DNA of 64,000 bases from Sulfurovum sp. (GTDB lineage Bacteria > Campylobacterota > Campylobacteria > Campylobacterales > Sulfurovaceae). Positions 24,628 through 41,028 of the stretch are shown here, piece by piece. The DNA lies in the NCBI GenBank assembly GCA_027068485.1, contig JAMOSB010000027.1:48984-112983 (forward strand), given 5' to 3'. Both the position numbers and the translations under genes were made by a program. Under the pieces are notes generated by a model. It searched no databases and was not told where the DNA came from. It saw only the letters and a program-made list of their open reading frames with translations. The stretch's first letter is position 1. Each line of letters begins with the position of its first letter.

Positions 24628-24654
24628 AAAAAAGCAACACCCTAGAGCGGTGCC
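24628..24654 (-). terminator. Rho-independent terminator after the M14 gene
   Basis: On the minus strand GGCACC and GGTGTTGC form a short stem with a GC-rich loop directly after the stop codon, followed by six Ts (24633-24628). The stem uses two G-U pairs, so it is weak but well placed. Confidence 0.5.
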
Positions 24655-27230
24655 TAATACTTCTCTAGTGAATTGTAGTAGATCGTCTGAGGCTCAGAGA
24701 AGTTGGGGACATCATCATAGGTAAAGACCGCATAGTACTTCTCTTTACTAAAGGTGGCGAAGTTATCATAGGTATAGGTATCCTTTCCTCCATAGATCTT
24801 CACCCCATCCATAAAGTGACGCGGTGGGTGGAAACTGTTGCGTACGACATAGTAGCCCTTGAGTGCCTCATCCTCAACCTTATCCCAAGTGAGTTTAATC
24901 ATCTTATGCTCTTTGGTGAGTTGAAGGTTGCTCACTTTATCAACAGGTTTACGGCGTTTTTTGATCGATTTGACTATCAACTCCGCATCAACCCCCCAAT
25001 CTACAATACGATTTTGGGCTCCTGAAGCGGAGGTAGGCTTGATGACAAGCTTAAGCTTTTTACCCTGCTGATACATCGTATCAAGTACACTCTTAGAGAG
25101 GGTATCAAACTTAAAGTACTGACACGCCTTGGCGGAGAGGTCAGACTCTGCGACCTCATAGCCGATATACTCAATCTTCTCACGGTTCTTGATATCCTCA
25201 TAGGTACCCACCTCATCGACCTCAACCAACTCGACATAGTATCGCACATCTGAACGCTTCTTAAAGCTGTTTTTATTGCGTATACGCAACGCACACTGTG
25301 TAAGGATCGTCTCTTCATGAGAAGGCAGAGAGGAGAGATCAAACTCAAGGTAACCATAGACACGATTACCTGCTTTATCAAATCCACTCTTCAAGCCCGA
25401 TTCAACACAATCACTAGAGATCGTAGAGAGTCGTGTCGCAGGAAGGTTAATCTTCGTATCTTTCACCGTATACTTGATATCAAGAATGGGACGGTAGTGA
25501 ATCCCACCTCCAAACTTCCCATACCCAATATCAAACTGCATCATCTGAGAGTCTTCACCCGCAGGCAACTCTTTGGGACCATCGACACGGAAGATAGCGG
25601 TTTTATTTTGGATCTCCTCTTGGAGTAACTCACACTCATGACTCGAAAACTCCCAAAAGTTCCAGATCCCCTGTGTGAGTTTACTGGAGACGATCGCTTG
25701 TCCTATCACCCCTTTGGCACGGGCATTTTCTATCTGAGTGAAGTCCGTCACATCACTCACACTCCCATGCTCTAACAACGAGAGATTCCACTCTCCAAAC
25801 TTCTCAATCTTCGCAGCGACACGGTTCATCGGATAGAGATAGAAACGAGCCGATTTGATAATCGCATTGTGAGGCAACGCATCAAAATCAAAGCTCATCA
25901 CCGCATTACAGATCCCCTTAGATTGGTTGATCCCTACAAAGAGTGAGTTCTCCCCAAAGTGTGAACGGTTCTGCTCTTGGGTGTACTCTCCCACATAGCC
26001 TGTCCCACTCTTATTGGCAAAGATAAGCTTAAAAAACTCATCATCCTCTAGCCATGTACGCACCTTGACTACAGGAGCAAAAGGGGACTTATAGCCACTC
26101 TTTTTATTGACCGCACGGATAGAGTAGTGGTAGTTGGTTGAGCTAGCTAGATCGGTATCTAAGAAGTGGTTCTCCCCTACGATACCCACTTTGGTGCGTT
26201 CATTACACGCATCTTTATCCTCTGTACTTCGGTAGATCTCAAAGAAGATATCCTCTCGCTTCTCATACTTCCATACCAGCTTCACAGAGGTCGCATCACG
26301 ATACTCTAGGGTAAACTCCTCTACACGACGCGGTGCAAACGCAGAGTAGTTGACCACCTCACCAAAGACCTTCTTAAGTGCAGGGATATTCTCATGGATA
26401 CTTCCACTCATACTCTTCATATAGTCAGGAATGTTTTTCGTCCCCACCTCAACCACGATAGCTAAGGCTCCCTTGGAGTAGTAGTACTCTCGCCCACTCC
26501 CAGAGATGAGGGCTGCGGGTGGCTTTCCTCGGTGGATACCATACTTGCGTCCTGTCACCTTAGAGATCTCATCATTCATATTGGCACACAAGACATTCAT
26601 ATCTGTCCCATCGATCTCCGCCTCATGCATAAAGCGGTGAGCAGGAAAGAAGACATTCCCCTGAGAGTGGTAGTCTAAGGCAATGGTGATATTGTCTCGT
26701 GCATCGACAAACTCTTTGATCGCACGGGTCTCTGCTTCTGAGAAGGGAGCCTCTCCGCCATAGACATTGGAGGCGGTATTGGGGTTTTTGACAAACCCTA
26801 TCGAGAAGTTACGGTTGAGATCGACCCCAATGGTTCCATCATGGTTGACCCGACGGTTTTTCCGCCAAAAAGAGAAGTGTTCTCGTGAGTACTCATATCC
26901 ATCAGGGTTGAGACATGGGACGATATAGAGTGTCGACTCAGCCAAAGACTTCTCTAGCTCAGGATCGACCCGCTGATTGTGAGCAACATACTCGATAAAC
27001 TTCAATGCCAACTCATGCCCAATCCACTCGCGTGCGTGAATACTCCCCGTATAGAGCATCGCAGGCTTCTCATCGGCTCTCTGCACATCTTGAGAGATCT
27101 TAGCAAGGACAATATCCCGCCCCTCATAGGTGGTACCTATCTTCACAACCTCGATCAGATCAGGGTGTTGTTTTTCTATCGTTTTGAGAAAGTCTAAACT
27201 CTCACTATAAGACATATATTGGTTTTTCAT
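24654..27230 (-). CDS. M14 zinc carboxypeptidase with fibronectin-III and DNRLRE-type modules
   Basis: This is an 858-residue protein. Residues 5-300 form an M14 carboxypeptidase. Zinc ligands are H65 and E68 (HAREW) and H188 (LDYHSQGN). The catalytic glutamate is E261 (VVEVGTKN), and substrate-binding residues lie in NPDGYEY, WRKNRR and DLNRNF. After it come a fibronectin-III-like domain (about 305-395), a long beta-rich region like the DNRLRE family of surface proteins (about 405-770), and a final fibronectin-III-like domain (about 775-855). No signal peptide is visible, which is odd for such modules. It is downstream of two ATP-grasp genes with an 85-base gap. Confidence 0.88.
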   Translation of the reverse strand: MKNQYMSYSESLDFLKTIEKQHPDLIEVVKIGTTYEGRDIVLAKISQDVQRADEKPAMLYTGSIHAREWIGHELALKFIEYVAHNQRVDPELEKSLAESTLYIVPCLNPDGYEYSREHFSFWRKNRRVNHDGTIGVDLNRNFSIGFVKNPNTASNVYGGEAPFSEAETRAIKEFVDARDNITIALDYHSQGNVFFPAHRFMHEAEIDGTDMNVLCANMNDEISKVTGRKYGIHRGKPPAALISGSGREYYYSKGALAIVVEVGTKNIPDYMKSMSGSIHENIPALKKVFGEVVNYSAFAPRRVEEFTLEYRDATSVKLVWKYEKREDIFFEIYRSTEDKDACNERTKVGIVGENHFLDTDLASSTNYHYSIRAVNKKSGYKSPFAPVVKVRTWLEDDEFFKLIFANKSGTGYVGEYTQEQNRSHFGENSLFVGINQSKGICNAVMSFDFDALPHNAIIKSARFYLYPMNRVAAKIEKFGEWNLSLLEHGSVSDVTDFTQIENARAKGVIGQAIVSSKLTQGIWNFWEFSSHECELLQEEIQNKTAIFRVDGPKELPAGEDSQMMQFDIGYGKFGGGIHYRPILDIKYTVKDTKINLPATRLSTISSDCVESGLKSGFDKAGNRVYGYLEFDLSSLPSHEETILTQCALRIRNKNSFKKRSDVRYYVELVEVDEVGTYEDIKNREKIEYIGYEVAESDLSAKACQYFKFDTLSKSVLDTMYQQGKKLKLVIKPTSASGAQNRIVDWGVDAELIVKSIKKRRKPVDKVSNLQLTKEHKMIKLTWDKVEDEALKGYYVVRNSFHPPRHFMDGVKIYGGKDTYTYDNFATFSKEKYYAVFTYDDVPNFSEPQTIYYNSLEKY

Positions 27231-27269
27231 TCTATCGTATTCTCTTTAGTTAGTATTTTTTGATCTAGT

Positions 27270-27298
27270 AGCACACCCCCGTGGTGGGGTAGCGTGCT
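27270..27298. repeat. Strong hairpin between the ATP-grasp and M14 genes
   Basis: AGCAC-ACCCC and GGGGT-AGC-GTGCT pair around a GTGGT loop. There is no T-run after it on the minus strand, so it is not a standard terminator. It could set the ratio of ligase to carboxypeptidase by slowing transcription or protecting an RNA end. Confidence 0.45.
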
Positions 27299-27315
27299 AT
27301 GGGGTAGGAGGGGTG

Positions 27316-28755
27316 TTAGAGTGTCTCTTTAAAAGCATCCCACTGCTTCATAAGCTTTTTGAGCATTTTGGATTTCAACCATGAGAACGCTTCACTCAGT
27401 CTCTCTGGTTCGGTCTCTAGGGCATGTACTAGTGCGAGGGTATCAAACTTCTTTAGGATCTTCGCAGACTTCTTCTTACCAATCCCATCGACAGAGGTGA
27501 GGAGTCTCTCTAGGTTCTCTTCACTTAGGAGTATCGTCTCCTCTACCTCTTCACTCTGAGCCGTCTCATCTGAAGCGATTGCCTCTAGGGGGCGTGGATT
27601 ACTCTTGGCGTGGACTTTACGAATCGTACGCCCATAGTTGTCTTGGAAGTTCCACACTTCACTAGGCCACTCCTCAGAGGTTCTATCTTCTGTACATAGG
27701 ATAGGGTAGAGGGCATCTAGCTCATGAAGGTAGATCTCACCCTCCTCTGTCTGCTTACTCTTCTTATCCAAGAAGTAGGCACCATCATAGCTAGGGGTAT
27801 AGCGTCCAAAGGTGATATAACGCAAGGTTCGTAGAACAGAAGCGTCCATCTTACCAAGCTCCTCCCAGTTATATAGAGGTATATGAGGAAGTGGGAAGCG
27901 TCCATCAGAGAACTTCCACATCAAGTACTGCCCAATCCAATCTCTAATATACGGGAACGCAGCAAATGCTGTCGCACACTCCAAGATACGGTACTTACCA
28001 TCTTCACCTACTGCAATATCACACGCCCAATACTCTGCATTGGCATTTTTGGAGACCTGTACGGCTAAGTCAAGAAGCTCTTTAGGGACATCCATATAGT
28101 CCATACTTCCTCCTTGAGAGGTGTTGGTGAGCCACTCACCCTCAGGTGGTCGTCGCCAGAAAGCACACACAGGCTTATGCCCAATCAGCATCACCCGTAC
28201 ATCCGCAGACATCGGTACAAAGTCTTGGAAGTAGGCAGGGTGATACTTCTTCTGAGCGAGAAGGTTATGTGCCTCTTGAGCAGAGTCTACCTTATGGACA
28301 AAGTATCCCCCATAGTTAGAAGGACCGTAAGATTTTTTGATAATCTTAGGGAACTCTGTCTTATCGATAAACTTCTCCGCTTTTTGCTTATCATAATAGA
28401 TGTAAGTCTTAGGAATAGGGATATCATACTTCCACGCAAAACGGGTCACATTCTCTTTGGATTTGTTGGAGAACTGTGTATCCATCGAAGGGATAAACTG
28501 CACATGAGGCAACTCTCGTGCAATCTCTCTAAAGGTCTCATAGGCTGTCGCAGGGATATTACCAATAAGGATATCAATCTTCTTGCGTCGCACCTCTTTG
28601 ACAAAACGATCTTTATCATTTTTCCAGTGGTAGACTACTGTCTCAATCTTATCTGGCCACCCTCTAAAGTTGGATTTATCAAAAAATCTCAATACATGAT
28701 CGAGATAGAGCATACCAAGTCGTGGTAACTTTGCGTGTTTTGTTTTCTTTGCCAT
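27316..28755 (-). CDS. ATP-grasp ligase with C-terminal helix-hairpin-helix region
   Basis: This is a 479-residue protein whose central ATP-grasp fold (about 95-290) resembles the YheC/YheD and RimK-like carboxylate-amine ligases. The lysine pair K140-K141 and the loop GPSNYGG (144-150) would bind ATP, and D246 and E259 are the expected metal ligands. The usual asparagine after the glutamate (E-x-N) is alanine here (ECATAF). The last 65 residues contain a helix-hairpin-helix-like VDGIGKKKSAKILKKF sequence. A GTG at 28761 touches the ribosome site, so ATG 28755, six bases after it, is the start. It follows the next ATP-grasp gene after nine bases. The substrate is unknown. Confidence 0.8.
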   Translation of the reverse strand: MAKKTKHAKLPRLGMLYLDHVLRFFDKSNFRGWPDKIETVVYHWKNDKDRFVKEVRRKKIDILIGNIPATAYETFREIARELPHVQFIPSMDTQFSNKSKENVTRFAWKYDIPIPKTYIYYDKQKAEKFIDKTEFPKIIKKSYGPSNYGGYFVHKVDSAQEAHNLLAQKKYHPAYFQDFVPMSADVRVMLIGHKPVCAFWRRPPEGEWLTNTSQGGSMDYMDVPKELLDLAVQVSKNANAEYWACDIAVGEDGKYRILECATAFAAFPYIRDWIGQYLMWKFSDGRFPLPHIPLYNWEELGKMDASVLRTLRYITFGRYTPSYDGAYFLDKKSKQTEEGEIYLHELDALYPILCTEDRTSEEWPSEVWNFQDNYGRTIRKVHAKSNPRPLEAIASDETAQSEEVEETILLSEENLERLLTSVDGIGKKKSAKILKKFDTLALVHALETEPERLSEAFSWLKSKMLKKLMKQWDAFKETL

Positions 28756-28764
28756 TTTCACTCC

Positions 28765-29664
28765 CTATTGTTTAGTTTTTCTATCAATCATCTCTACGAT
28801 AAGATCTATTTTGCGTTGATTGAAGTCTAGTCCCATCTTCTCTTGCTCTGGAGTTGCAAAAGCAGGAATACCATTGACCTCAAGGACGACATACTCCTCT
28901 CGCTCTTGGTCATAGATGATATCTACCCCTGCGATATCTGTGCCACACACCTTGGCTGCTTTTTTGGCTAGCTCAACGATAGCATCATCAGGCTCCCGAA
29001 GGAAAATACTTCCACCACTGGTGACATTGGTACGCCAGTCTGTCCCACTCGCCTTACGCCCGTAGCAAGAGACAAACTCTCCATCGACAATATCAATACG
29101 GAAATCGGTATTGTCATACTTCAAGAACTTCTCTACATAAAAGAAGCGAAGATCCATCTGATTGAGGAACGGAAGGAGGGTATCGAGTGTCGCTTCACTC
29201 TCAATCTTGGTGAGTCCTACCCCACCCCATCCATCGGTTGGCTTATAGACCATCTTACTCCACTTCTTCATAATACTTTTGAGTTGCTCTCCATCATCTC
29301 GGTGACAGAGCTTAAAGCTTGGTGTCGCCACCCCATGTTGACGCAAAAGAAAAGAGGTCTGAAACTTATCCTCTGTTAGAGCAAACGACTCATAACTATT
29401 GATCATGGGGATGACACGGTTGAGGGCTTGGTAGAGAAATATCTGATACTGAGTCTGCTCACCTGCATTATAGGAGAAGAAGAGGTCAAGCTTATCGACT
29501 TTGAGCTTATCGTGTAGAATATGCCCATTTTTAGCCACAGCATGACGCAAGTTGATACCTGTCACCGTTTCTATATTTCTCTCGTTGAGGGCTTTGACAA
29601 TTTTCTTCTGTATCTTATCACCACCGCTATTGCTATAGAGCCACATTCCTATTTTTCTCGACAT
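28765..29664 (-). CDS. RimK-like ATP-grasp ligase
   Basis: This is a 299-residue ATP-grasp protein that looks fully equipped. It has K151 before the glycine loop GWGGVG (155-160), D258 in AGVDIIYD, and E272 and N274 in VLEVNGIP. The TDWRTNVTSGGS stretch is typical of RimK-type enzymes, which join amino acids (often glutamate) to a peptide carboxyl end or a cofactor. It starts an operon with a second ATP-grasp gene and an M14 carboxypeptidase. It is divergent from an M20 peptidase across an AT-rich 90-base gap that must hold both promoters. The substrate is unknown. Confidence 0.87.
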   Translation of the reverse strand: MSRKIGMWLYSNSGGDKIQKKIVKALNERNIETVTGINLRHAVAKNGHILHDKLKVDKLDLFFSYNAGEQTQYQIFLYQALNRVIPMINSYESFALTEDKFQTSFLLRQHGVATPSFKLCHRDDGEQLKSIMKKWSKMVYKPTDGWGGVGLTKIESEATLDTLLPFLNQMDLRFFYVEKFLKYDNTDFRIDIVDGEFVSCYGRKASGTDWRTNVTSGGSIFLREPDDAIVELAKKAAKVCGTDIAGVDIIYDQEREEYVVLEVNGIPAFATPEQEKMGLDFNQRKIDLIVEMIDRKTKQ

Positions 29665-31991: not shown

Positions 31992-33356
31992 CTACTCCAC
32001 ACTAATCGTACAGGTGAGTTGATTGCTTTGGGTGGTGCTGTCCCAGAGATTGCTATTGGAGAGCCTCATAGCAGCGTCACCCTCTCCTATCTCAAGGTAG
32101 AGGCAGTAGCTCCCTTTGGCTATCCCCTTCAACGAGAGATCTGCTCTAATCTCTTGGCTCTCTTGGGGCTGAAACTGGCGGATATCAATATCCTGCTCAA
32201 AACGATACCGCTCTGTCGTTCCTTGCAGTACCAGTGCGACAGGGGGCTTAACATAGGGAGCAGCGTAGCCCTTATTGATCAGTGTGAGTGAGACACCAAG
32301 CTGTTGGGGTGTGGGATCAAGTAGAAGTTTCTGGGCTACCAAACGATACCCTAAGTTATCGCGTATCTCGCTATAGCACCCCCCATCCTTCCACTTCTGT
32401 AGGACATCTGGATGATAGGCATCATTGAGATAGGAGTAGTGCATACGCTTAAACTCTGCTAGAGCACTGCTACAATCAGAGAGTGTTGCATCACTCCCAG
32501 AGCCTATCCCACAAGTCTCTCCACCAACGGGAGCATACTTCGCATCATTGATCACATACGATTTCCAAAACGCAATACTATCTGATGGGTAGGTACCCAT
32601 ATCGGTACTACTTGCCAAGACACAGTCATTGTGATGTCCTACTTTGGCTCGGATATCCTCTGTATAGGCGATAGCCTCTGTGATCTTCCCCTCTTCTCCT
32701 GCCTCGCGGTAGGTAGTAGCTGTACCAAAGAGTAGCTCTTTGTGCATGGGGGTGCGTATCTGTATATACTTATCGGGAAAGAGCTCTACAAGCTTCTCAA
32801 TAATCGCTTTACGGTTGGCTTTGTAGTTAGGGTCACTTGCTTCAAACTCCCCTGTGAAGCTATGCCACTCCCCCCATGCGCCAATACATCCCGCTTGTAC
32901 GACTGAGATCGTTGAGCTGTAGCGTTGAAGTAGTGATTTGAGCTGATCGAGATGCCCTAAGATAATCGCTTTGGTCGGGTCATCACCTGAGCTATCATTA
33001 CGATACTTGACCCGAAAGATTAGCTTCACACCGCTGGCATTGGCATCAGAGAGGTTCTGTGTGATAGTCGCAATCAGGCTACTGGGTAGCTGTGTCGTCG
33101 TCTGATACGCCTCAAGATCCAGTGGGGCATAGACCAGTGTGTAGCCATCCTCTCGTACCTCTTCAAACATATTATAGGACTTCTGAGCTGTAAGGGGGTA
33201 ATCTGCATCATAAAACCCTCTATGAGGATTGAGTCGATTGGCCAAGAGATCCTCTTGATAGGTAATACCCTCTGTGTCACCCTGCTCAGTGGTAGTACCC
33301 CCACACCCAATCAAAACACCTAGAGCCAAAATCCCACTCATTATCTTTAAACGCAT
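31992..33356 (-). CDS. DUF4874/DUF4832 lipoprotein, possible polysaccharide-active enzyme
   Basis: This is a 454-residue protein with a lipoprotein signal (LGVLIGC, lipid on C18). The body matches my memory of the DUF4874 plus DUF4832 pair: NRLNPHRGFYDADYPL near the start, a GAWGEWHSFTG motif about residue 160, then a TIM-barrel-like region and a beta-rich end. These families are often found near sugar-handling genes and are thought to be hydrolase-like; no activity is established that I can rely on. It ends against the cytochrome gene and is divergent from the EPS locus and its riboswitch, so it may belong to the same programme. Confidence 0.78.
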   Translation of the reverse strand: MRLKIMSGILALGVLIGCGGTTTEQGDTEGITYQEDLLANRLNPHRGFYDADYPLTAQKSYNMFEEVREDGYTLVYAPLDLEAYQTTTQLPSSLIATITQNLSDANASGVKLIFRVKYRNDSSGDDPTKAIILGHLDQLKSLLQRYSSTISVVQAGCIGAWGEWHSFTGEFEASDPNYKANRKAIIEKLVELFPDKYIQIRTPMHKELLFGTATTYREAGEEGKITEAIAYTEDIRAKVGHHNDCVLASSTDMGTYPSDSIAFWKSYVINDAKYAPVGGETCGIGSGSDATLSDCSSALAEFKRMHYSYLNDAYHPDVLQKWKDGGCYSEIRDNLGYRLVAQKLLLDPTPQQLGVSLTLINKGYAAPYVKPPVALVLQGTTERYRFEQDIDIRQFQPQESQEIRADLSLKGIAKGSYCLYLEIGEGDAAMRLSNSNLWDSTTQSNQLTCTISVE

Positions 33357-33467
33357 ATCTATCCTTTGGTTATCAAGTTACATAGTATAGCTAAAGCCTC
33401 TTGCTCCTTAAGGATACCCCACCACAAAAGAGGATAAAACCAAAGAGCGTGCAAAGTTGTGTTACGA

Positions 33468-33489
33468 GAGGTAATGGAGAGGTAATGGA
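33468..33489 (+). repeat. Tandem 11-base direct repeat at the distal EPS promoter
   Basis: GAGGTAATGGA occurs twice without spacer. The spacing equals about one helical turn. The TATAAT at 33497-33502 follows, so the repeat covers the -35 area, as in activator-dependent promoters. Confidence 0.6.
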
Positions 33490-33496
33490 GTTATAT

Positions 33497-33591
33497 TATA
33501 ATTCGGACATAAAGCTTGAGAGAGCGGGCAGAAAGCCTTGTTCACTCAGAAGTAAAAGCTCGTTATAATCTAAAATAGTTTTAGTTATAAT
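33497..33591 (+). promoter_or_regulatory. Three TATAAT-type -10 elements in series
   Basis: Exact TATAAT hexamers stand at 33497-33502, 33564-33569 and 33586-33591. The last lies about 20 bases before the riboswitch aptamer, so a transcript from it would begin right at the aptamer. The first would add a leader of about 100 bases. No convincing -35 boxes are seen. Confidence 0.5.
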
Positions 33592-33608
33592 TTTAGCAAT
33601 AAGAATAT

Positions 33609-33682
33609 TAGGCCAAACCTACTGTGAAGTGGGGACGGAAAGCCTCAGGTCTTCGAGAGAAGATAGCTGGGTTGCATCCGTC
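33609..33682 (+). ncRNA. Cyclic di-GMP-I (GEMM-I) riboswitch aptamer
   Basis: The sequence matches the GEMM-I consensus closely. GGCCAAACC leads into the P2 hairpin CCUACU-GUGA-AGUGGG, whose GNRA tetraloop is the class hallmark that docks into P3. The joining segment GGACGGAAAGCC corresponds to the conserved GGACGCAAAGCC. The P3 hairpin is GUCUUC-GAGA-GAAGAU, and AUAGCUGGGUUGCAUCCG closes the aptamer. It lies 127 bases before the lipoprotein gene that opens the EPS locus. Ligand binding is inferred from the class. Confidence 0.92.
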
Positions 33683-33721
33683 TGTTTAACGGCAGATGGA
33701 ACGCTTATTTTTATAAGTTTT
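33677..33721 (+). terminator. Riboswitch expression platform: two hairpins, second with a T-run
   Basis: TCCGTCTG (33677-33684) pairs with CAGATGGA (33693-33700). Just after it CTTAT-TTTT-ATAAG (33704-33717) is followed by TTTT. The first stem shares bases with the 3' end of the aptamer, so aptamer closing and this hairpin may compete. Whether c-di-GMP turns expression on or off cannot be told by eye. Confidence 0.5.
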
Positions 33722-33808
33722 ACTCCTATAAGATCTTATCTCTATCTTTATTATCTAACATATTTATAGATTATTTTAAAAATCTAAATCATTTTTAAGG
33801 ATAATCAA

Positions 33809-35206
33809 ATGTGTACAACGACTCAAATCAAAAATAGTTTAATCATGCTCTCATTTGCAGCAATCGTTGCGGGATGTAGTACAGCTCCAGAGGGAACAAC
33901 CGCTACAATCGAAACCACACCAACCAATACAACACATACGATAGAGATCATCGTCTCTGGTACCACACCAACAACGACACCAACAACCGTGACACCTAGT
34001 ACCCTATCAACACAAACTATCGTCACAACACCGCCTACACAGACACTCGTCTCAGCACCTGTCACACAACCTACGGCGACACCAACAACCACACCTATAG
34101 CACCTGCGGTCATCACACCAACGACACAACCTGTAGTAACACAACAACCTACTACAACCCCTACACCAACACAAACAATAAGTGTCGCACCTGCAACACA
34201 CCCTAGCGTCGTAGCACCCCTTACAAATATTACACACCAAGGGATCGTCAAAGATAGCCATACAGGTCGAGGCTTAGCCAATGTAACCGTAACCTTAGGG
34301 GATGTAACTACCACAACCGATGCACAAGGAGCCTACACGCTCAATCAGGTAACGGCTAGTGATGAAGCGGTTGTACGCTTTGAGAAAGAGGGGTACCTCA
34401 TCGGTGCAACAACCATTAAAATCAAGGCATTGACAGAGAACAATGAGTCTACACCAAACTATGTATCCTATACACTGACTCCCAACAACTATCATTGGGA
34501 CTATGCAAGTAGTGATGAGATTCAGGGTGCACATATTATCATCGATGCTTCTGTAGCCTATAATGACCGTCAAGGAAACCTCTACACGGGGACAAATAGA
34601 GCCGAACTCACCTACCTTGATATCACTTCTATCGAGGGGAAAAACGCTTTTACTGGTGACTTTTCAGGAATCAATAGCAATGGAGTAGCCGTACAGTTTA
34701 GTAGCTATGGGTTAATCTCTCTTCTACTCAAAGATAGCAGTGGAGAGGCATTGACACTTGCACCAAATGAAACAATAACCCTTCGATTTGATGCAACACC
34801 CTCTTTGGAGCAACAAACCACTCTCCCTTTATGGTATTATGACTATGAGCAGGGGTTGTGGTTTGAAGAGGGGACAGCAGAGTTACAACAGGATGGTACC
34901 TACGAAGGAGAGGTTTCACACCTTGGGACTTGGAGTATCAACCTTCCCCTTGAAGAGGAGAGCGGAATCTACCGTGGTCGTATGGTTGATGGCAATGGAG
35001 AAGCCAAAAGTCATGTAAGAGTCCAAGCAATCGGAACCAACTGGATCAGTAGAGACCTTACTACCGATGAAGATGGTTTCTTTGAACTAGAAGTCGTACC
35101 AAATAGTAGCTTTACACTTGCAGCGTATGATTATGAAAATCGATACGGAGCAAACTACACAGGTACTATTGCACCTATCGCTTCTGGTGATAGTGTAGAA
35201 GATTAA
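33809..35206 (+). CDS. Thr/Pro-rich surface lipoprotein with regulatory-like beta domains
   Basis: This is a 465-residue lipoprotein (lipobox IVAGC, C23). Residues about 27-145 are an unbroken low-complexity stretch of Thr, Pro, Val and Ala, built from TPTTT-like units, and look like a flexible or glycosylated stalk. Next is a carboxypeptidase-regulatory/CnaB-like domain (about 148-215, GIVKDSHTGRGLANVTVTLG). Then comes a beta-rich region with PLWYYDYEQGLWFEEG, and a second regulatory-like domain (about 385-450). It is the first gene behind the c-di-GMP riboswitch. A role in holding or exporting the polysaccharide at the cell surface is inferred from position. The stalk DNA is repetitive and may vary in length. 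Confidence 0.8.
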   Translation: MCTTTQIKNSLIMLSFAAIVAGCSTAPEGTTATIETTPTNTTHTIEIIVSGTTPTTTPTTVTPSTLSTQTIVTTPPTQTLVSAPVTQPTATPTTTPIAPAVITPTTQPVVTQQPTTTPTPTQTISVAPATHPSVVAPLTNITHQGIVKDSHTGRGLANVTVTLGDVTTTTDAQGAYTLNQVTASDEAVVRFEKEGYLIGATTIKIKALTENNESTPNYVSYTLTPNNYHWDYASSDEIQGAHIIIDASVAYNDRQGNLYTGTNRAELTYLDITSIEGKNAFTGDFSGINSNGVAVQFSSYGLISLLLKDSSGEALTLAPNETITLRFDATPSLEQQTTLPLWYYDYEQGLWFEEGTAELQQDGTYEGEVSHLGTWSINLPLEEESGIYRGRMVDGNGEAKSHVRVQAIGTNWISRDLTTDEDGFFELEVVPNSSFTLAAYDYENRYGANYTGTIAPIASGDSVED

Positions 35207-35233
35207 GCATTAGTTAAGCAAAAGGATAACATT

Positions 35234-36757
35234 ATGAAAAAGATATTTTTACCACTCTTATTTCCACTCACTGTATCAATGGCAATTGATTTCACCATGA
35301 CTCCATCAGGGATTACCGCTCCGATAGAGACAAACCCAACCACTGAAGAGACCACTGGTTCAACACCCATAGCCACCTCTACCAAAACAAACCCTTATCT
35401 TGAAGAGGTCACTCTTCCTAGCTGTGACGCAAGCAATCCCGAAGTACAGTTTATTCGAAGTAACGCAGACTGGAGTACGATTAACCGTAGTGATAAACGA
35501 ATCTTCTGTGTCTCTCCTGGAGATTATCGATCACTTAGACATATTAGTCTAACATCGAGTGGAACAGCAGAAAAACGACGCTATATTATCTTGAATAATG
35601 GCAATGATACACATCCTGGAAAACTCGATAAGAGTCAACTAGCAAATTATGGTTTACGCCTTGAGCATGCTAGCTATTGGGTCATTGATAGATGGAGTAA
35701 TTTTGATGATAACCTACCCAAGGCACTTGAACTCTCTAATGGTTCTTCATATAATATAATCAATCGAGCATTTACCGATAATATTGCTCAATCCATACTT
35801 ATTACCGATCGATCGAATAATAATACTATTCAAAATAGTCGTTTTCAAAATATGGCACATCCTTATCGAGTAGCGGATGGAGTTTGTATCTCCATTATGC
35901 AATGGGGTGCAGATTCATACGAAACAAAAAATATCAAGATTATTAATAATGAGATTGTTAATCAAGGAGATGGCTTTCAATCCGTACGGGGACCACGATA
36001 TTCCGATGGTCTTCTACAAGACGGAAATTGTGAAGGATTAATTATTGATAGTAACGATATTTACATCGATGAGCGTATCTATACAGATGGTCGAGGACAC
36101 TATACTCCTACAGGAAAATATGCTTATGCTGAAGATGCTATTGATCTCAAAGTAGGATCTGAAAATCCTAATAATCCAATTATTATTACTAATAATCATA
36201 TGTGGGGTTCAAGAGAATCAGACCGTACCAACTCACTATTAAGTTCACATGGTGGATTAATTGTTATCCACTATGGTGTTAAGTACCTTAAAATTAAACA
36301 AAATCTATTCTTTGATTCCCTGGCTGGAATTGGTTCAGGTGACAATAATCGTTTCCCCTATTCTTTATCGGAAAGTGAAATTACAGATAATCTATTTGTT
36401 GACATTGGTTTATCTAATGGTGTTGGTGGTATATCAGGAAAAGTCTTCTACTTTGCAGATCAAAATAGTCAAGTTATGATAAAAGATAATCTTCTAAAAG
36501 ATTGTAGAGATCAACAAGCTCTATTTTGGACAACGTCTAATTTCTCTTATTTAAACAATACGACTATTAATCAAGAAAAGAGTAATATTAATACGAGTTC
36601 ACTTTGGAAAAACTCTTCCTCTTCTGTACTGATACCAGAGGAGAACTACACAACAGAAGAGGCATTAAACCTAGGTTATACCAATGCCTATACATTTACA
36701 ACTAATACTTTTACAACAAGCCCAAAAGTCATTAGTCTTGAGAATACACTTAAGTAG
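35234..36757 (+). CDS. Secreted right-handed beta-helix protein
   Basis: This is a 507-residue protein with a signal peptide (MKKIFLPLLFPLTVSMA), a Thr-rich linker to about residue 50 and then a right-handed parallel beta-helix. The repeating NNTIQNSRFQN-like and ITNNHMWG turns, rich in Asn, are typical. This fold is used by polysaccharide lyases, epimerases (AlgG-like) and hydrolases, and no catalytic residues can be named with confidence. It lies 27 bases after the lipoprotein gene behind the riboswitch, so it should be c-di-GMP controlled. The likely job is trimming, modifying or binding the exported polysaccharide. AT content rises in its second half. Confidence 0.82.
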   Translation: MKKIFLPLLFPLTVSMAIDFTMTPSGITAPIETNPTTEETTGSTPIATSTKTNPYLEEVTLPSCDASNPEVQFIRSNADWSTINRSDKRIFCVSPGDYRSLRHISLTSSGTAEKRRYIILNNGNDTHPGKLDKSQLANYGLRLEHASYWVIDRWSNFDDNLPKALELSNGSSYNIINRAFTDNIAQSILITDRSNNNTIQNSRFQNMAHPYRVADGVCISIMQWGADSYETKNIKIINNEIVNQGDGFQSVRGPRYSDGLLQDGNCEGLIIDSNDIYIDERIYTDGRGHYTPTGKYAYAEDAIDLKVGSENPNNPIIITNNHMWGSRESDRTNSLLSSHGGLIVIHYGVKYLKIKQNLFFDSLAGIGSGDNNRFPYSLSESEITDNLFVDIGLSNGVGGISGKVFYFADQNSQVMIKDNLLKDCRDQQALFWTTSNFSYLNNTTINQEKSNINTSSLWKNSSSSVLIPEENYTTEEALNLGYTNAYTFTTNTFTTSPKVISLENTLK

Positions 36758-36764
36758 TAGGTTG

Positions 36765-36793
36765 GCTCCTATACATTCGTAGCATATAGGAGC
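36765..36793 (+). terminator. Perfect 9-base hairpin after the beta-helix gene
   Basis: GCTCCTATA (36765-36773) and TATAGGAGC (36785-36793) form a perfect stem with an 11-base loop eight bases after the stop codon. No T-run follows, so it may act as an RNA end stabiliser or a factor-dependent stop. It separates the riboswitch-linked pair from the glycosyltransferase genes. Confidence 0.5.
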
Positions 36794-36820
36794 TAATGTA
36801 AACTTTAATTGGAGAGTAGC

Positions 36821-36826
36821 TATAAT
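36821..36826 (+). promoter_or_regulatory. Putative -10 for the glycosyltransferase segment
   Basis: TATAAT lies 28 bases before the ATG at 36854, with an AAGGGGG ribosome site in between. With the hairpin upstream, this suggests a separate transcript for the genes from 36854 on. Confidence 0.5.
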
Positions 36827-36853
36827 TAAGGAGATAAGATTTAAGGGGGTTGT

Positions 36854-37969
36854 ATGCCAGTACCACACTGTGACATTACTGTATTTGGTTCAAAAGGGCA
36901 TACACAACAAATCTTAACAGGGTACTTTTTACTTCAAAAACAGGGTTTTATTACTCTAAAGTCTCATATACATAATTTAAAAAATCATGAAAGAGATCCT
37001 GACAACCCTTTTAAAGATGCCCAAGAGTACCATATTCAAGTTCTAGTCAATCAATCACTTACACTCTACTATGATATGCATGATAGCTATGAGATCAATC
37101 TCAAAGCACTTAAAAATTCCGATATCTATTTTAAACGTAGTTATCTCTCTTCTTATATTGAAAAAATCAAAAAAACATTATCTACACCTATTATACCTTT
37201 AGGGTTTAACTATTGGGTCTATCCTAACAGTATAGATAAAGAGAATATTAAACGCACTCTTTTTATCTCTAATATCACACTCAAAGAGCGTGCAGGAATG
37301 CTCCTAAGAGCGTTAAGTTTTCCAAGCTCTATTAGTAATGCTCCTAAACTTAAAGAGATAGAGTGTACCCTACCTACAGAGGAATATAAAAATAGAAAAA
37401 TTCTCTTCATGGTTCGAGCATGGGATCCTGCCCTCTTTCCAAATATTTCACAAGAAGCAACAGAACAGCTTGAAGAGATTAATCAGACACGTGCTTCCTG
37501 TATCAGAGTCTTGAAAAAGGAGTTCAAAAAAGATTTTTATGGTGGGTTTTCTTCTACTCCTTATACCCAAAAGTACTATAAAGATGCGATTGTTCCGAAT
37601 CCTGCTAGCACAACAAAAAGTAATTATCTTAAACAACTGCAATCCTATCCAATATGTATTGCAACAACAGGACTTCATAATTCTATTGGATGGAAATTTG
37701 GAGAGTATGTTGCTATGTCTAAAGCAATTATTTCTGAAAAACTTATCTATACACCTCCTAAAGCATTTCAAATTAATCAAAATTTTTTGGAATTTCAATC
37801 ACCTGATGAGTGTATTGAAAAAACACTTTTACTCTATCAGAATGAGGATATACGCTATCAAATGAGACTCAATAATGCATACTACTATCATCACTATCTT
37901 AAACCTGATAACTTAGTCTATAATACACTTATGAACGCACTATCTCTCAATATAGGAAGTTATCTATGA
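36854..37969 (+). CDS. Probable glycosyltransferase
   Basis: This is a 371-residue soluble protein. The C-terminal half has features of a GT-B nucleotide-sugar-binding domain: PICIATTGLHNSIGWKFGEYVAMSKAII, followed by a region of the form SPDECIEKTLLLY seen in many GT1/GT4 members. The N-terminal half is less typical and no donor can be inferred. It is the first sugar-transfer gene of the AT-rich block and overlaps the acetyltransferase gene by four bases. It may instead be one of the glycan-modifying proteins with a GT-like fold. Confidence 0.6.
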   Translation: MPVPHCDITVFGSKGHTQQILTGYFLLQKQGFITLKSHIHNLKNHERDPDNPFKDAQEYHIQVLVNQSLTLYYDMHDSYEINLKALKNSDIYFKRSYLSSYIEKIKKTLSTPIIPLGFNYWVYPNSIDKENIKRTLFISNITLKERAGMLLRALSFPSSISNAPKLKEIECTLPTEEYKNRKILFMVRAWDPALFPNISQEATEQLEEINQTRASCIRVLKKEFKKDFYGGFSSTPYTQKYYKDAIVPNPASTTKSNYLKQLQSYPICIATTGLHNSIGWKFGEYVAMSKAIISEKLIYTPPKAFQINQNFLEFQSPDECIEKTLLLYQNEDIRYQMRLNNAYYYHHYLKPDNLVYNTLMNALSLNIGSYL

Positions 37970-38418
37970 GTAAAGTTGTTCTATTTTTTTATAAAATTGC
38001 ATTTTTTCTTATGCAAAAAAAGATACCACTACTTCCAAACATTTTTAATAAACTCTTTGTTCGTATTCTTTTTGGATGTTATATAGGACTTGGAGCTAGA
38101 ATCGGAAAAGGAACTCGTATCGGTTACGGTGGAATTGGTGTTGTAATTCATCATCGAGCAATTATAGGTAACAATGTTATTATTCATACAGGTGTCACAA
38201 TTGGTGGAACAACAAAGCACTATAAAGTACCCATCATCGGAGACAATTCTATTATCGCATCTGGTGCAAAGATTATTGGTCCCATTTCAATTGGAAACAA
38301 CTGTATAATTGGTGCTAATGCTGTTGTCCTAGAGAGTATTCCTGATAACTGTGTTGCAGTTGGAGTCCCTGCAAAAATTATTAAACGAAATATTAATATC
38401 TTTCATTATAGAGACTAA
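37966..38418 (+). CDS. Serine-acetyltransferase-like hexapeptide-repeat protein
   Basis: This is a 150-residue left-handed beta-helix acyltransferase. Hexapeptide repeats run from about residue 45 to 135 (IGKGTRIGYGGIGVVIHHRAI, IHTGVTIGG, IIASGAKIIGPISIGNN). The ending AVGVPAKIIKR is typical of the CysE/EpsC branch. A short hydrophobic N-terminus precedes them. Shortened CysE relatives in polysaccharide loci are often sugar O- or N-acetyltransferases rather than cysteine-pathway enzymes; that is the more likely role here. It is coupled to the gene upstream by a four-base overlap. Confidence 0.85.
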   Translation: MSKVVLFFYKIAFFLMQKKIPLLPNIFNKLFVRILFGCYIGLGARIGKGTRIGYGGIGVVIHHRAIIGNNVIIHTGVTIGGTTKHYKVPIIGDNSIIASGAKIIGPISIGNNCIIGANAVVLESIPDNCVAVGVPAKIIKRNINIFHYRD

Positions 38419-38423
38419 TACAT

Positions 38424-39536
38424 TTAACAATAAAGTTTATCAAAAATAACAGAAATCTCCTGAGCTCTATCAGCATGTGTTCTATCTTCAAAGCCTGACC
38501 TAAACACAGCGTTTTCCTTTTTATTAAAATAGAGATATGCTCTAACCTCTTCTCGAGCTTCATTCAGTTGATTAAGTCCAAAAAGACGAAAAGAACTATA
38601 TTTTAAAAGATCTGGCATTCCACCTACCGCACTTCCAACAATAGGAAGAGAAGTGTTTATTGCCTCTATCAATACCAGACCAAATGCTTCATGTCGTGCA
38701 AAGTGTAATAGAAGGTTAACCTCTCTCATAAGAGAAGTAATACTCTTTTGAAATCCTATGAACTGTACCTGCTTCTCTATTTGATACTCTTTTAATTTTT
38801 CAATTAACATCGCATAATAGTTGGGATTAAGTTCTGTATCACCTGCAATCAAATAATATAAATTGGGATCTTCTTTTAATAGAGGTGCAACTATATCAAT
38901 ATTAAGTTCTATTCCTTTATTAGGTACAATCCTTGCCACAGTTAAGATTACACGAGCTCCCTTTGGTAATTGAAATCTACTTTGTAATGGAAATGATTCT
39001 CTTCTCTCTTCTCTCTTCTCTAATACATTCAGAACAACAGAACTTTTATCTTTATCCAGCTGAAAAGTCTCTCTATTTGTTACTAAGGAGTGTTGTGTTA
39101 TATGATAACTATAATCAAAAGATTGTATTATCCAAGACCAGACATAATCTTTTGGGCTAGAAAGATCTATTGGTTCATAATATTCATGAAATGCTTTAAT
39201 CTTTTTAGTTTTTGTTCCCAATGCTAACAAAAATGTTACAAAATCTGTACCTCTATTATGAGAAATAATAATATCTAAATGCATCTTCCGAATATGTAAA
39301 AGATTAGAGAACAACCTTAAAGGCTTTGATTTCAAATCATACTCTACTCTACTAATAGCAGAGACATACCGTAACAAGTTTTCTTCTATCTCTCTATCCT
39401 GAAAACGATCTACAGAATAGAGTGGAATAATACAAACATAGTAACCCAACTTTACCAATTCTTGGGCTAAATGTACCTCTAAAAGTTCAGCAGCTCCTCG
39501 ATCAATTCGATTTACAACAATACCAATTCTTTTCAT
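38424..39536 (-). CDS. GT4-family glycosyltransferase
   Basis: This is a 370-residue GT-B enzyme. The N-terminal domain has VNRIDRGAAELLEVHLAQEL. The C-terminal donor domain has ILTVARIVPNKGIELNI and the E-x7-E type motif in HEAFGLVLIEAINTSLPIVGSAVGG. These are standard for retaining GT4 enzymes. It is read leftwards, between two rightward groups, tail to tail with the acetyltransferase gene with a five-base gap. Donor and acceptor are unknown. Confidence 0.9.
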   Translation of the reverse strand: MKRIGIVVNRIDRGAAELLEVHLAQELVKLGYYVCIIPLYSVDRFQDREIEENLLRYVSAISRVEYDLKSKPLRLFSNLLHIRKMHLDIIISHNRGTDFVTFLLALGTKTKKIKAFHEYYEPIDLSSPKDYVWSWIIQSFDYSYHITQHSLVTNRETFQLDKDKSSVVLNVLEKREERRESFPLQSRFQLPKGARVILTVARIVPNKGIELNIDIVAPLLKEDPNLYYLIAGDTELNPNYYAMLIEKLKEYQIEKQVQFIGFQKSITSLMREVNLLLHFARHEAFGLVLIEAINTSLPIVGSAVGGMPDLLKYSSFRLFGLNQLNEAREEVRAYLYFNKKENAVFRSGFEDRTHADRAQEISVIFDKLYC

Positions 39537-39581
39537 ACTCTCTCCCTATTTATCATTAAGCTATATATATAAAAGTCAAGA

Positions 39582-39587
39582 TATAAT
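39582..39587 (+). promoter_or_regulatory. Putative -10 for the 39,649 gene group
   Basis: TATAAT lies in the AT-rich 112-base divergent gap, 62 bases before the ATG at 39649. The ribosome site of that gene is poor (CAAG), so its translation start is less certain than others. Confidence 0.4.
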
Positions 39588-39648
39588 AAAAAAATCATAC
39601 ATTAGGATAGAAGATTGCAGAACTTTATGTTTACTAACATTCAAGCAA

Positions 39649-41028
39649 ATGAAAGATAATATCAATAATTCAATACACTTAAATCTCTTAGCTACAACTA
39701 CTTTTTTACTCTCTTTTTTATCTCTTAACCTCTTCTCTTTTAATCTCTACCTCTCACCAATTATTATCTATTCTCTGATGATACTACTTGGTAGTATAGC
39801 CATTATCAGCTTGTCAAATGAAGATAAACTAATCAAAATAAAACTCTTTATTTCTATTTTTTCTCTATTGCTTATCTATATTTTACTACATGATTCTATT
39901 CTTCTTACTTTCTATCCAAATAAACTGCCATTTGACTATCCAGATGATAAGACTTTTTATCACTTTTCTGATCTTTCTCTTCCCTATCTTACGGGTGAAA
40001 AACATTTTTTAACTCTCTTTAGCTTTGCTTCGTATCCAATGCATGATCTTCCATTACATGTTATGTTCTCAGGAACTATTAATCTTCTATCCCATATTAT
40101 TGATGGAGAAAATAATATCCTTGTACAGAAACTATTATCACCTTTTTTTGCTTCACTTTTCTCTGTTATTCTCTATTCAACACTGAAATTCCAGTTCAAA
40201 AATGCACACTTTGCACTTCGTGCAACCCTTGTCTATTCGCTACTCTCTGCTATGTTTATCTACTCTACCTCACTTATGAGAGATACCGATATTGCCTTAG
40301 CCTATATGCTTGTTATTTACCTTTTTTTTCAACCCAACAGTAAGCTTAATTTTTTCTTTATTTTTATAATTGCCTCTATTACACTCTACCTTAGAACTGA
40401 ATCGGGACTTGTACTCTTTGGGATTTTACTACTTTACAGTTATTTTTATATTCAGACGATTCGTTCCAAAAATTTACGATTTATTTTATATCTTTTTTTT
40501 ATAACGCTTTTTATTTTTATTGTATTATTAATATCAGGAAAATTGATGGCTATGATCAATATGAGAAGTGAAATTAATACAACAAAGGCCTTAACACACG
40601 CGTCAAGTAGTTCTATCGGTCTTCTTCTCAATAAACTCCCTTTTCCGCTTAATACTATCACTAAACTTCTTTTTGGACAGATACAACCTTTTCCATTTTT
40701 TAATGCTATAGATAGATTTCCAGAAGCATTAAGTGGTATTTTCTGGCCTCTTATCTTTATCTCTATGCTCTATACAATCATTCAAAAAAATTTACAAAGA
40801 CATCTTAATCAAAAAACTATTACACTACTTCTTCTTGCATTATTAGTCTTACTTCTTATGTCTTCAGAGCCTATGGCAAGAAGGATGATGAGTGTTTACC
40901 CTATTATCTATATTGTAAGCTTATACTTTTTTCTCTATAGCCCTAGAGACAAAATCAAATATACTATACTCTATTATCTATTTGGTATTATGACACTTAA
41001 TACTCTATATTATATTATTAAGTTATAA
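39649..41028 (+). CDS. Polytopic membrane protein, possible Wzy-type polymerase
   Basis: This is a 459-residue protein with about eleven hydrophobic segments, a larger loop near residues 100-135 (YPDDKTFYHFSDLSLPYL), and another basic loop near 300-345. The layout, length and place in a locus that has a flippase but no other polymerase candidate suggest a Wzy polymerase or a GT39/GT83-like membrane glycosyltransferase. Sequence motifs alone do not settle this, because Wzy proteins share little similarity. The DNA is among the most AT-rich of the window. Confidence 0.6.
   Translation: MKDNINNSIHLNLLATTTFLLSFLSLNLFSFNLYLSPIIIYSLMILLGSIAIISLSNEDKLIKIKLFISIFSLLLIYILLHDSILLTFYPNKLPFDYPDDKTFYHFSDLSLPYLTGEKHFLTLFSFASYPMHDLPLHVMFSGTINLLSHIIDGENNILVQKLLSPFFASLFSVILYSTLKFQFKNAHFALRATLVYSLLSAMFIYSTSLMRDTDIALAYMLVIYLFFQPNSKLNFFFIFIIASITLYLRTESGLVLFGILLLYSYFYIQTIRSKNLRFILYLFFITLFIFIVLLISGKLMAMINMRSEINTTKALTHASSSSIGLLLNKLPFPLNTITKLLFGQIQPFPFFNAIDRFPEALSGIFWPLIFISMLYTIIQKNLQRHLNQKTITLLLLALLVLLLMSSEPMARRMMSVYPIIYIVSLYFFLYSPRDKIKYTILYYLFGIMTLNTLYYIIKL

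Follow-up and report, generated by a model that had tools for sequence, protein, structure and literature searches.

The locus raises the question of whether an RNA leader in Sulfurovum, a group of sulfur-oxidising relatives of Campylobacter and Helicobacter, reads c-di-GMP, and if so, which genes it controls and in which direction. We propose that a c-di-GMP-I riboswitch at 33602-33679 likely turns on a transcript encoding a lipoprotein and a beta-helix protein at high c-di-GMP levels, and that these genes are likely switched on when the bacterium settles. What the analysis itself shows is that the aptamer matches its family and keeps the contact bases, that a hairpin is predicted which overlaps C33675 and recurs in related leaders, and that the association with the genes is conserved.

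A cmscan search of the window, i.e., the whole 64-kb stretch of DNA analysed, gave RF01051 as the only match above the cut-off of any family. This c-di-GMP-I (GEMM-I) aptamer lies at 33602-33679 on the forward strand, and the RF01051 search that the original prediction had asked for returned a significant score of 57.7 bits (cut-off 35; E = 1.1e-8) over model positions 1-87 of 87, confirming a near-consensus GEMM-I aptamer at full length. The predicted span (33609-33721) begins 7 bases late and takes in 42 bases past the end of the aptamer. P2 (33618-33633) is capped by a loop of the GNRA type, as anticipated (GUGA, 33624-33627), P3 extends over 33641-33673, and both partners of the interhelical pair, C33636 and G33666, are there. 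A genus model, R1, built from 34 aptamers including this one (33 from Sulfurovum and one, L007, from another family of the order), scored the aptamer at 77.0 bits. Across these 34 aligned aptamers, 98.9% of the helix cells are paired (0 of 500 shuffles as high) and 12 of 18 pairs have changes on both sides (matched by 0 of 500 shuffles), while further pair types number 26, a value reached by 13 of 500 shuffles. Since pairing and covariation exceed all 500 shuffles, the alignment indicates that the aptamer structure is real and under selection in the Sulfurovum lineage. Judged by sequence and predicted structure, 33602-33679 is a c-di-GMP-I riboswitch. Because relatives carry pairs of aptamers, a second, decayed copy was sought on its 5' side (cmscan of 33360-33830, E up to 10), and none was found.

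For comparisons beyond this locus, we used 103 aptamers, i.e., the genus-model matches in the window and in 80 fetched stretches, which were chosen mostly from well-assembled genomes and high-scoring matches; three of the 103 come from two other families. The interhelical C and G each occur in 101 of them. On a mapping to Vc2 numbering that we partly take as given, G33612, A33639 and C33675 are the equivalents of G20, A47 and C92, which over the 103 aptamers (this one included) are kept in 102, 103 and 101 cases, respectively. These three bases are the c-di-GMP contacts of Vc2 in the accessible text of PMC4744006, and G11 of Cd1 is equated with Vc2 G20 in that of PMC9262584. The joining segment, on the other hand, is not the intact consensus that had been claimed: it reads GGACGGAAAGCC, the consensus being GGACGCAAAGCC, and model pair 12-37, which adjoins the pocket, is C-G instead of the G-C of RF01051. 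This reversal is found in 102 of the 103 aptamers, including the present one, and with both sides changed together it is, on the aligned sequences, a lineage signature. As to exceptions at the contact positions, C92 is replaced by U in the aptamer of L109, and in one copy of a pair in L079 (6858-6937, reverse strand) both G20 and C92 are replaced, by A and U respectively, which makes that copy either decayed or a candidate for another ligand.

The reversed pair, which differs from both RF01051 and RF03167 (c-di-GMP-I-GGC), could be taken to mean that the aptamer responds to another cyclic dinucleotide, either cGAMP or the ligand of RF03167. We consider this very improbable. RF03167 does score 56.7 bits on 33602-33679, but this is below its cut-off of 59, and while it precedes RF01051 by E-value on four of the seven aptamers in seven fetched loci, RF01051 leads by bits on three of those four (e.g., 71.8 versus 66.4). 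It is the bases at model positions 11 and 38, G rather than A and A rather than G, as in c-di-GMP-I, that led us to reject the variant ligand families. The cGAMP riboswitch, a GEMM-I variant, presumably has A at the G20 position, where G33612 stands here. The RF03167 class shares the overall fold and a comparable score, but was discarded on its sub-threshold score and on base 38, the A47 position, which is A in this aptamer and G in our own reading of the RF03167 consensus. For GEMM-I ligand variants, one pocket nucleotide is spoken of in the available part of PMC9481103. The four aptamers on which RF03167 outranks RF01051 are those of L035, L037, L039 and L040, though A stands where the RF03167 consensus has G, and annotation pipelines may label aptamers of this lineage wrongly as RF03167.

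The riboswitch is followed by a run of four genes on the forward strand (33809-38418), the first two being, as the original prediction stated, those of a surface lipoprotein and a beta-helix protein, both predicted. The lipoprotein (33809-35206, 465 aa) has a carboxypeptidase-regulatory-like domain (PF13715, 34.5 bits, cut-off 32.2) and a lipobox cysteine, C23, that is invariant in 15 aligned proteins; its gene has the ribosome site AAGGA. The structural model consists of beta-strand modules (mean pLDDT 72; unreliable over residues 1-138), and its best Foldseek matches, nearly all of low TM-score, are Gram-positive pilins and transthyretin-like domains of carboxypeptidases. The second gene (35234-36757) encodes a predicted secreted right-handed beta-helix protein of 507 aa (PF13229, below its cut-off) with a good model (mean pLDDT 82), whose structural matches are weak: glycosidases, PL6/alginate lyases and tailspikes, with TM-scores by query length of at most 0.44 among the best 50 matches. 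A search for relatives of this protein in a named genome collection found none. The third gene (36854-37969), encoding a protein of 371 aa with no family match in the profile search, is probably on the same transcript as the lipoprotein gene, and it is overlapped by the fourth (37966-38418), encoding a hexapeptide-repeat acetyltransferase of 150 aa (PF00132; nearest NCBIfam EpsC, below cut-off).

The aptamer had also been placed at the head of an exopolysaccharide locus, which the gene order does not bear out. The run ends at 38418, and a glycosyltransferase gene of reverse orientation (38424-39536) lies before the polysaccharide genes, which begin at 39649 and encode glycosyltransferases, a heparinase-like protein, an MBOAT protein, a weak AlgX match, a flippase and sugar-nucleotide enzymes. 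Because this gene separates the run from 39649, an exopolysaccharide operon under the switch was rejected, and the switch probably controls surface proteins beside the polysaccharide locus rather than the locus itself.

The link between aptamer and lipoprotein recurs in relatives. Matches to the lipoprotein were found in 22 of 150 genomes of the family and in 21 of 78 Sulfurovum genomes, and among the 17 strong loci (E < 1e-60, both searches pooled) an aptamer stands upstream in 16, nine of which carry two in a row. Tandem c-di-GMP-I riboswitches are known (PMC4759541), with 347 doublets and 12 triplets counted, according to the accessible portions of that paper and of PMC9481103, respectively; the nine loci resemble them, whereas the aptamer at 33602-33679 is single, and the second copy in several relatives is closely preceded by a TATAAT of its own. 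In the G357 locus, the aptamer runs into undefined bases. An aptamer likewise precedes each of the short or partial lipoprotein matches of L150-L153 and L159, and the weaker match of G455 has one that was not assigned to the gene. Ten weaker matches examined had no aptamer, nor had those of G462 and G005. The strong homologue of G010 has no aptamer within the upstream stretch examined, which counts against the gene link. In three genomes a further aptamer lies 3' of the lipoprotein gene (L131:2894-2972, L132:2859-2937 and L133:2808-2886), preceding a short gene that matches only the C-terminal part of the lipoprotein; in G003 and G439 the beta-helix gene comes after that short gene.

On the 5' side of the aptamer, a promoter-like TTCACT-17-TATAAT (33541-33569, forward strand, 10 of 12 matches, TATAAT at 33564-33569) is followed by a second TATAAT, read in the sequence at 33586-33591 (forward), ten bases before the aptamer. 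Promoter-like sites in 33360-39700 number 29 against 22.7 expected (sd 5.1), i.e., with no clear excess. From the TATAAT at 33586, transcription would probably start a few bases 5' of the aptamer. On the 3' side, a terminator-like hairpin (33674-33704, forward; -13.0 kcal/mol, equalled by 0 of 100 shuffles) is immediately followed by the T-tract TTATTTTT (33705-33712, forward). The terminator scan gave a core stem of 10 pairs (33677-33700, forward), the sole terminator-like site on the forward strand of 33360-39700, where both strands together have 4 such sites against 2.9 expected. The end of the aptamer had been expected to overlap the platform stem, and indeed a stem that shares aptamer bases and reaches the T-tract is present, the shared pairs being the two lowest only, which draw on G33674 and C33675, the C92 equivalent.

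From this arrangement we infer ligand binding, termination and the ON direction. Without ligand, G33674 and C33675 would close the hairpin 33674-33704, whose stem would abut the T-tract, and polymerase would terminate there. With ligand, C33675 would pair with c-di-GMP, the stem would stop at 33700, leaving four bases up to the T-tract, and polymerase would continue into 33809-38418. Since the lowest pairs include the C92 equivalent, c-di-GMP would compete with the hairpin.

The nine leaders most like that of 33602-33679, itself one of them, were grouped as type A; close kin among them are G444, G027, G429, G439 and G003. In a test that required the end pairs and ranked hairpins against shuffles, seven of the nine have a hairpin on the last bases of the aptamer that reaches the T-tract, equalled by at most 1 of 100 shuffles, and in six of these seven the hairpin base is GUUG or GGUUG, GGUU being the P3 strand. 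Of the other two, the first copy of G443 has a weak hairpin (25 of 100 shuffles equal) and the G028 leader has no hairpin on the last aptamer bases in the same test. The type A hairpins, as predicted from the leader sequences, favour a transcriptional ON switch. Against it, five of the nine leaders are close kin, and in the 33602-33679 leader the predicted competition involves two G-C pairs only, the 10-pair core is compatible with the aptamer, and the GGUU strand has no downstream pairing in the ligand-free fold, where P3 has a probability of 0.66-0.80 with the core hairpin formed alongside. In the other eight type A leaders the P3 probability is 0.01-0.45, and by these folds they fit the ON model better than the 33602-33679 leader does.

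This bears on the opposite direction, an OFF switch in which the ligand frees the core hairpin 33677-33700 as a terminator, and which we regard as unlikely. The core begins two bases past C33675, it is present along with the aptamer in the ligand-free fold, and taken by itself it passes the terminator scan; c-di-GMP-I switches of the OFF type also exist, according to the accessible text of PMC9262584. Yet four bases lie between the end of the core stem and the T-tract, while the stem that does reach the tract in six other type A leaders uses P3 bases that the ligand would withdraw. Surface proteins are, moreover, the expected targets of activation by c-di-GMP. A switch that is translational or mixed, in which pairing of the 5' flank or P3 changes RNA stability or access to the ribosome site (~33797), seems quite unlikely for this leader, where 129 bases separate the aptamer from the start codon and pairing of the 5' flank has a z of -0.03, but several other aptamers lie only 22-36 bases 5' of the start codon. 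RNAalifold of the type A leaders also pairs UUAGG with CCUAA (CCUAU in the 33602-33679 leader). Over 97 leaders, the 5' flank is slightly more complementary to downstream DNA (mean z -0.33, se 0.13; 12 below -1.5) than an upstream control is (mean z +0.12, se 0.10; 5 below -1.5), a modest effect given that for the P2 arm, taken as comparison, 13 of 97 leaders fall below -1.5 as well (mean -0.12, se 0.11). For 33602-33679 we retain the ON switch as the likely reading.

The ON mechanism cannot simply be extended to all leaders. In 97 leaders, the 3' strand of P3 showed no general excess of complementarity to the DNA that follows (mean z 0.07, se 0.10), so a P3-strand switch in every leader was rejected and is claimed only for type A and a few others. 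A hairpin of the type A kind occurs in 32 of the 103 aptamers, ranks within 2 of 40 shuffles in 19 of the 103, where ~7-8 would be expected by chance, and reaches -8 kcal/mol in 12; because it is present in only 32, platforms of other kinds must exist. A first terminator scan, run without shuffle control, found a hairpin of -7 kcal/mol or lower before a T-rich stretch in 35 of 99 leaders. The 3' part of the aptamer plus 60 bases is more stable than shuffles (mean z -0.67; below -1.5 in 27 and above 1.5 in 6 of 103), a result that implies no direction.

Besides the present locus, riboswitches of this class are widespread in the genus. RF01051 was found in 72 of 78 Sulfurovum genomes, with 531 matches and a median of 5 and a maximum of 21 per genome, counts that are a lower bound owing to strict filters (E up to 0.001); in a sample of the phylum, 25 of 298 genomes, belonging to 9 of 58 genera, have it. 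After 14 of the 103 aptamers had been dropped (4 with no gene found and 10 with the gene more than 420 bases away), the remaining 89 precede 76 genes, with two aptamers each before 13 of these. Proteins that look exported or membrane-bound are encoded by 62 of these 76 genes versus 191 of 461 other genes of the same loci (Fisher p = 5e-11), and lipoprotein-like ones by 22 of 76 versus 30 of 461 (p = 1e-7). The same rule was applied to both sets, a crude one of a hydrophobic stretch, plus a lipobox pattern for lipoproteins, that counts membrane proteins as well, and genes within either set are not independent. The most numerous groups, for which one member each was scanned to give the name, comprise 11 very large cadherin/Calx-beta proteins, 8 DUF4382 lipoproteins and 8 members of the family of the 33809-35206 lipoprotein, followed by 6 single PAS domain proteins and 5 CAP proteins.

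The genome of this contig has five RF01051 aptamers, including 33602-33679. The other four (G000, L035-L038) stand before genes for two proteins of more than 2000 aa with SdrD_B repeats (DUF11 also in one of them), a cadherin/Calx-beta protein of 2042 aa, and a lipoprotein of 502 aa without a Pfam match. The same genome encodes 8 GGDEF and 5 EAL domains, a possible supply of ligand. PilZ had no match in this genome and none over the cut-off in the 78 Sulfurovum genomes (two matches below threshold in G031; control positive in 5 of 14 genomes), and flagellin was found in 0 of the 78 (profile control positive in 4 of 14). We tentatively raise the possibility, with the PilZ and flagellin searches as its protein side, that c-di-GMP output in Sulfurovum runs mainly through RNA, hundreds of riboswitches with a fixed reversed C-G pair replacing PilZ-type receptors and switching on species-specific lipoproteins, adhesins and matrix proteins. 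If so, the settled state would be read directly by messenger RNAs, and the genus would offer a clean case for the role of c-di-GMP where swimming is not an option. If the switches work as predicted, a genus without a flagellin or PilZ match answers c-di-GMP via RNA on surface genes.

That c-di-GMP would be tied to surface proteins, as originally predicted, fits the gene order, but such a link is not new. In Vibrio cholerae, the Vc1 c-di-GMP-I riboswitch precedes the adhesin gene gbpA and regulates it positively, according to the accessible text of PMC4744006, an earlier example of an adhesin gene under ON control. Vc1 shares with the Sulfurovum switch the aptamer class, the G/A/C contact bases, a long 5' leader followed by a surface-attachment gene and, as predicted here, the positive direction; the phylum and gene are different, the 12-37 pair of Sulfurovum is reversed relative to the family consensus, and its terminator-like hairpin touches the C92 equivalent. 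The available part of PMC7423583 likewise places a c-di-GMP riboswitch before a surface protein gene, cbpA of Bacillus thuringiensis, although this encodes a collagen-binding protein of a Gram-positive. In C. jejuni leaders, no metabolite riboswitch except TPP is reported in the accessible text of PMC3847290, and among the matches listed from the open-licence literature, no paper described a c-di-GMP riboswitch in Campylobacterota. The class is known, as is control of surface genes by such switches; the present one is a further member in riboswitch-rich Sulfurovum, and what makes it interesting is that most of the c-di-GMP output of this genus may pass through RNA.

Some aptamers stand before genes of signalling proteins. 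Six (L055, L056, L069, L073, L089 and L092) precede small proteins of one cluster, of which the scanned member, L055, is a PAS domain protein, and these genes could feed back on signalling. Another precedes a hybrid histidine kinase with a nitrate/nitrite sensing (NIT) domain (L060:4238-6865, with a homologue in L076). In the window itself, the riboswitch adjoins a divergent gene with DUF4832 and DUF4874 (31992-33356, reverse strand), and a zinc carboxypeptidase (M14) stands beside two RimK-like ATP-grasp genes at 24654-29664 (reverse), which looks like a peptide-ligation unit.
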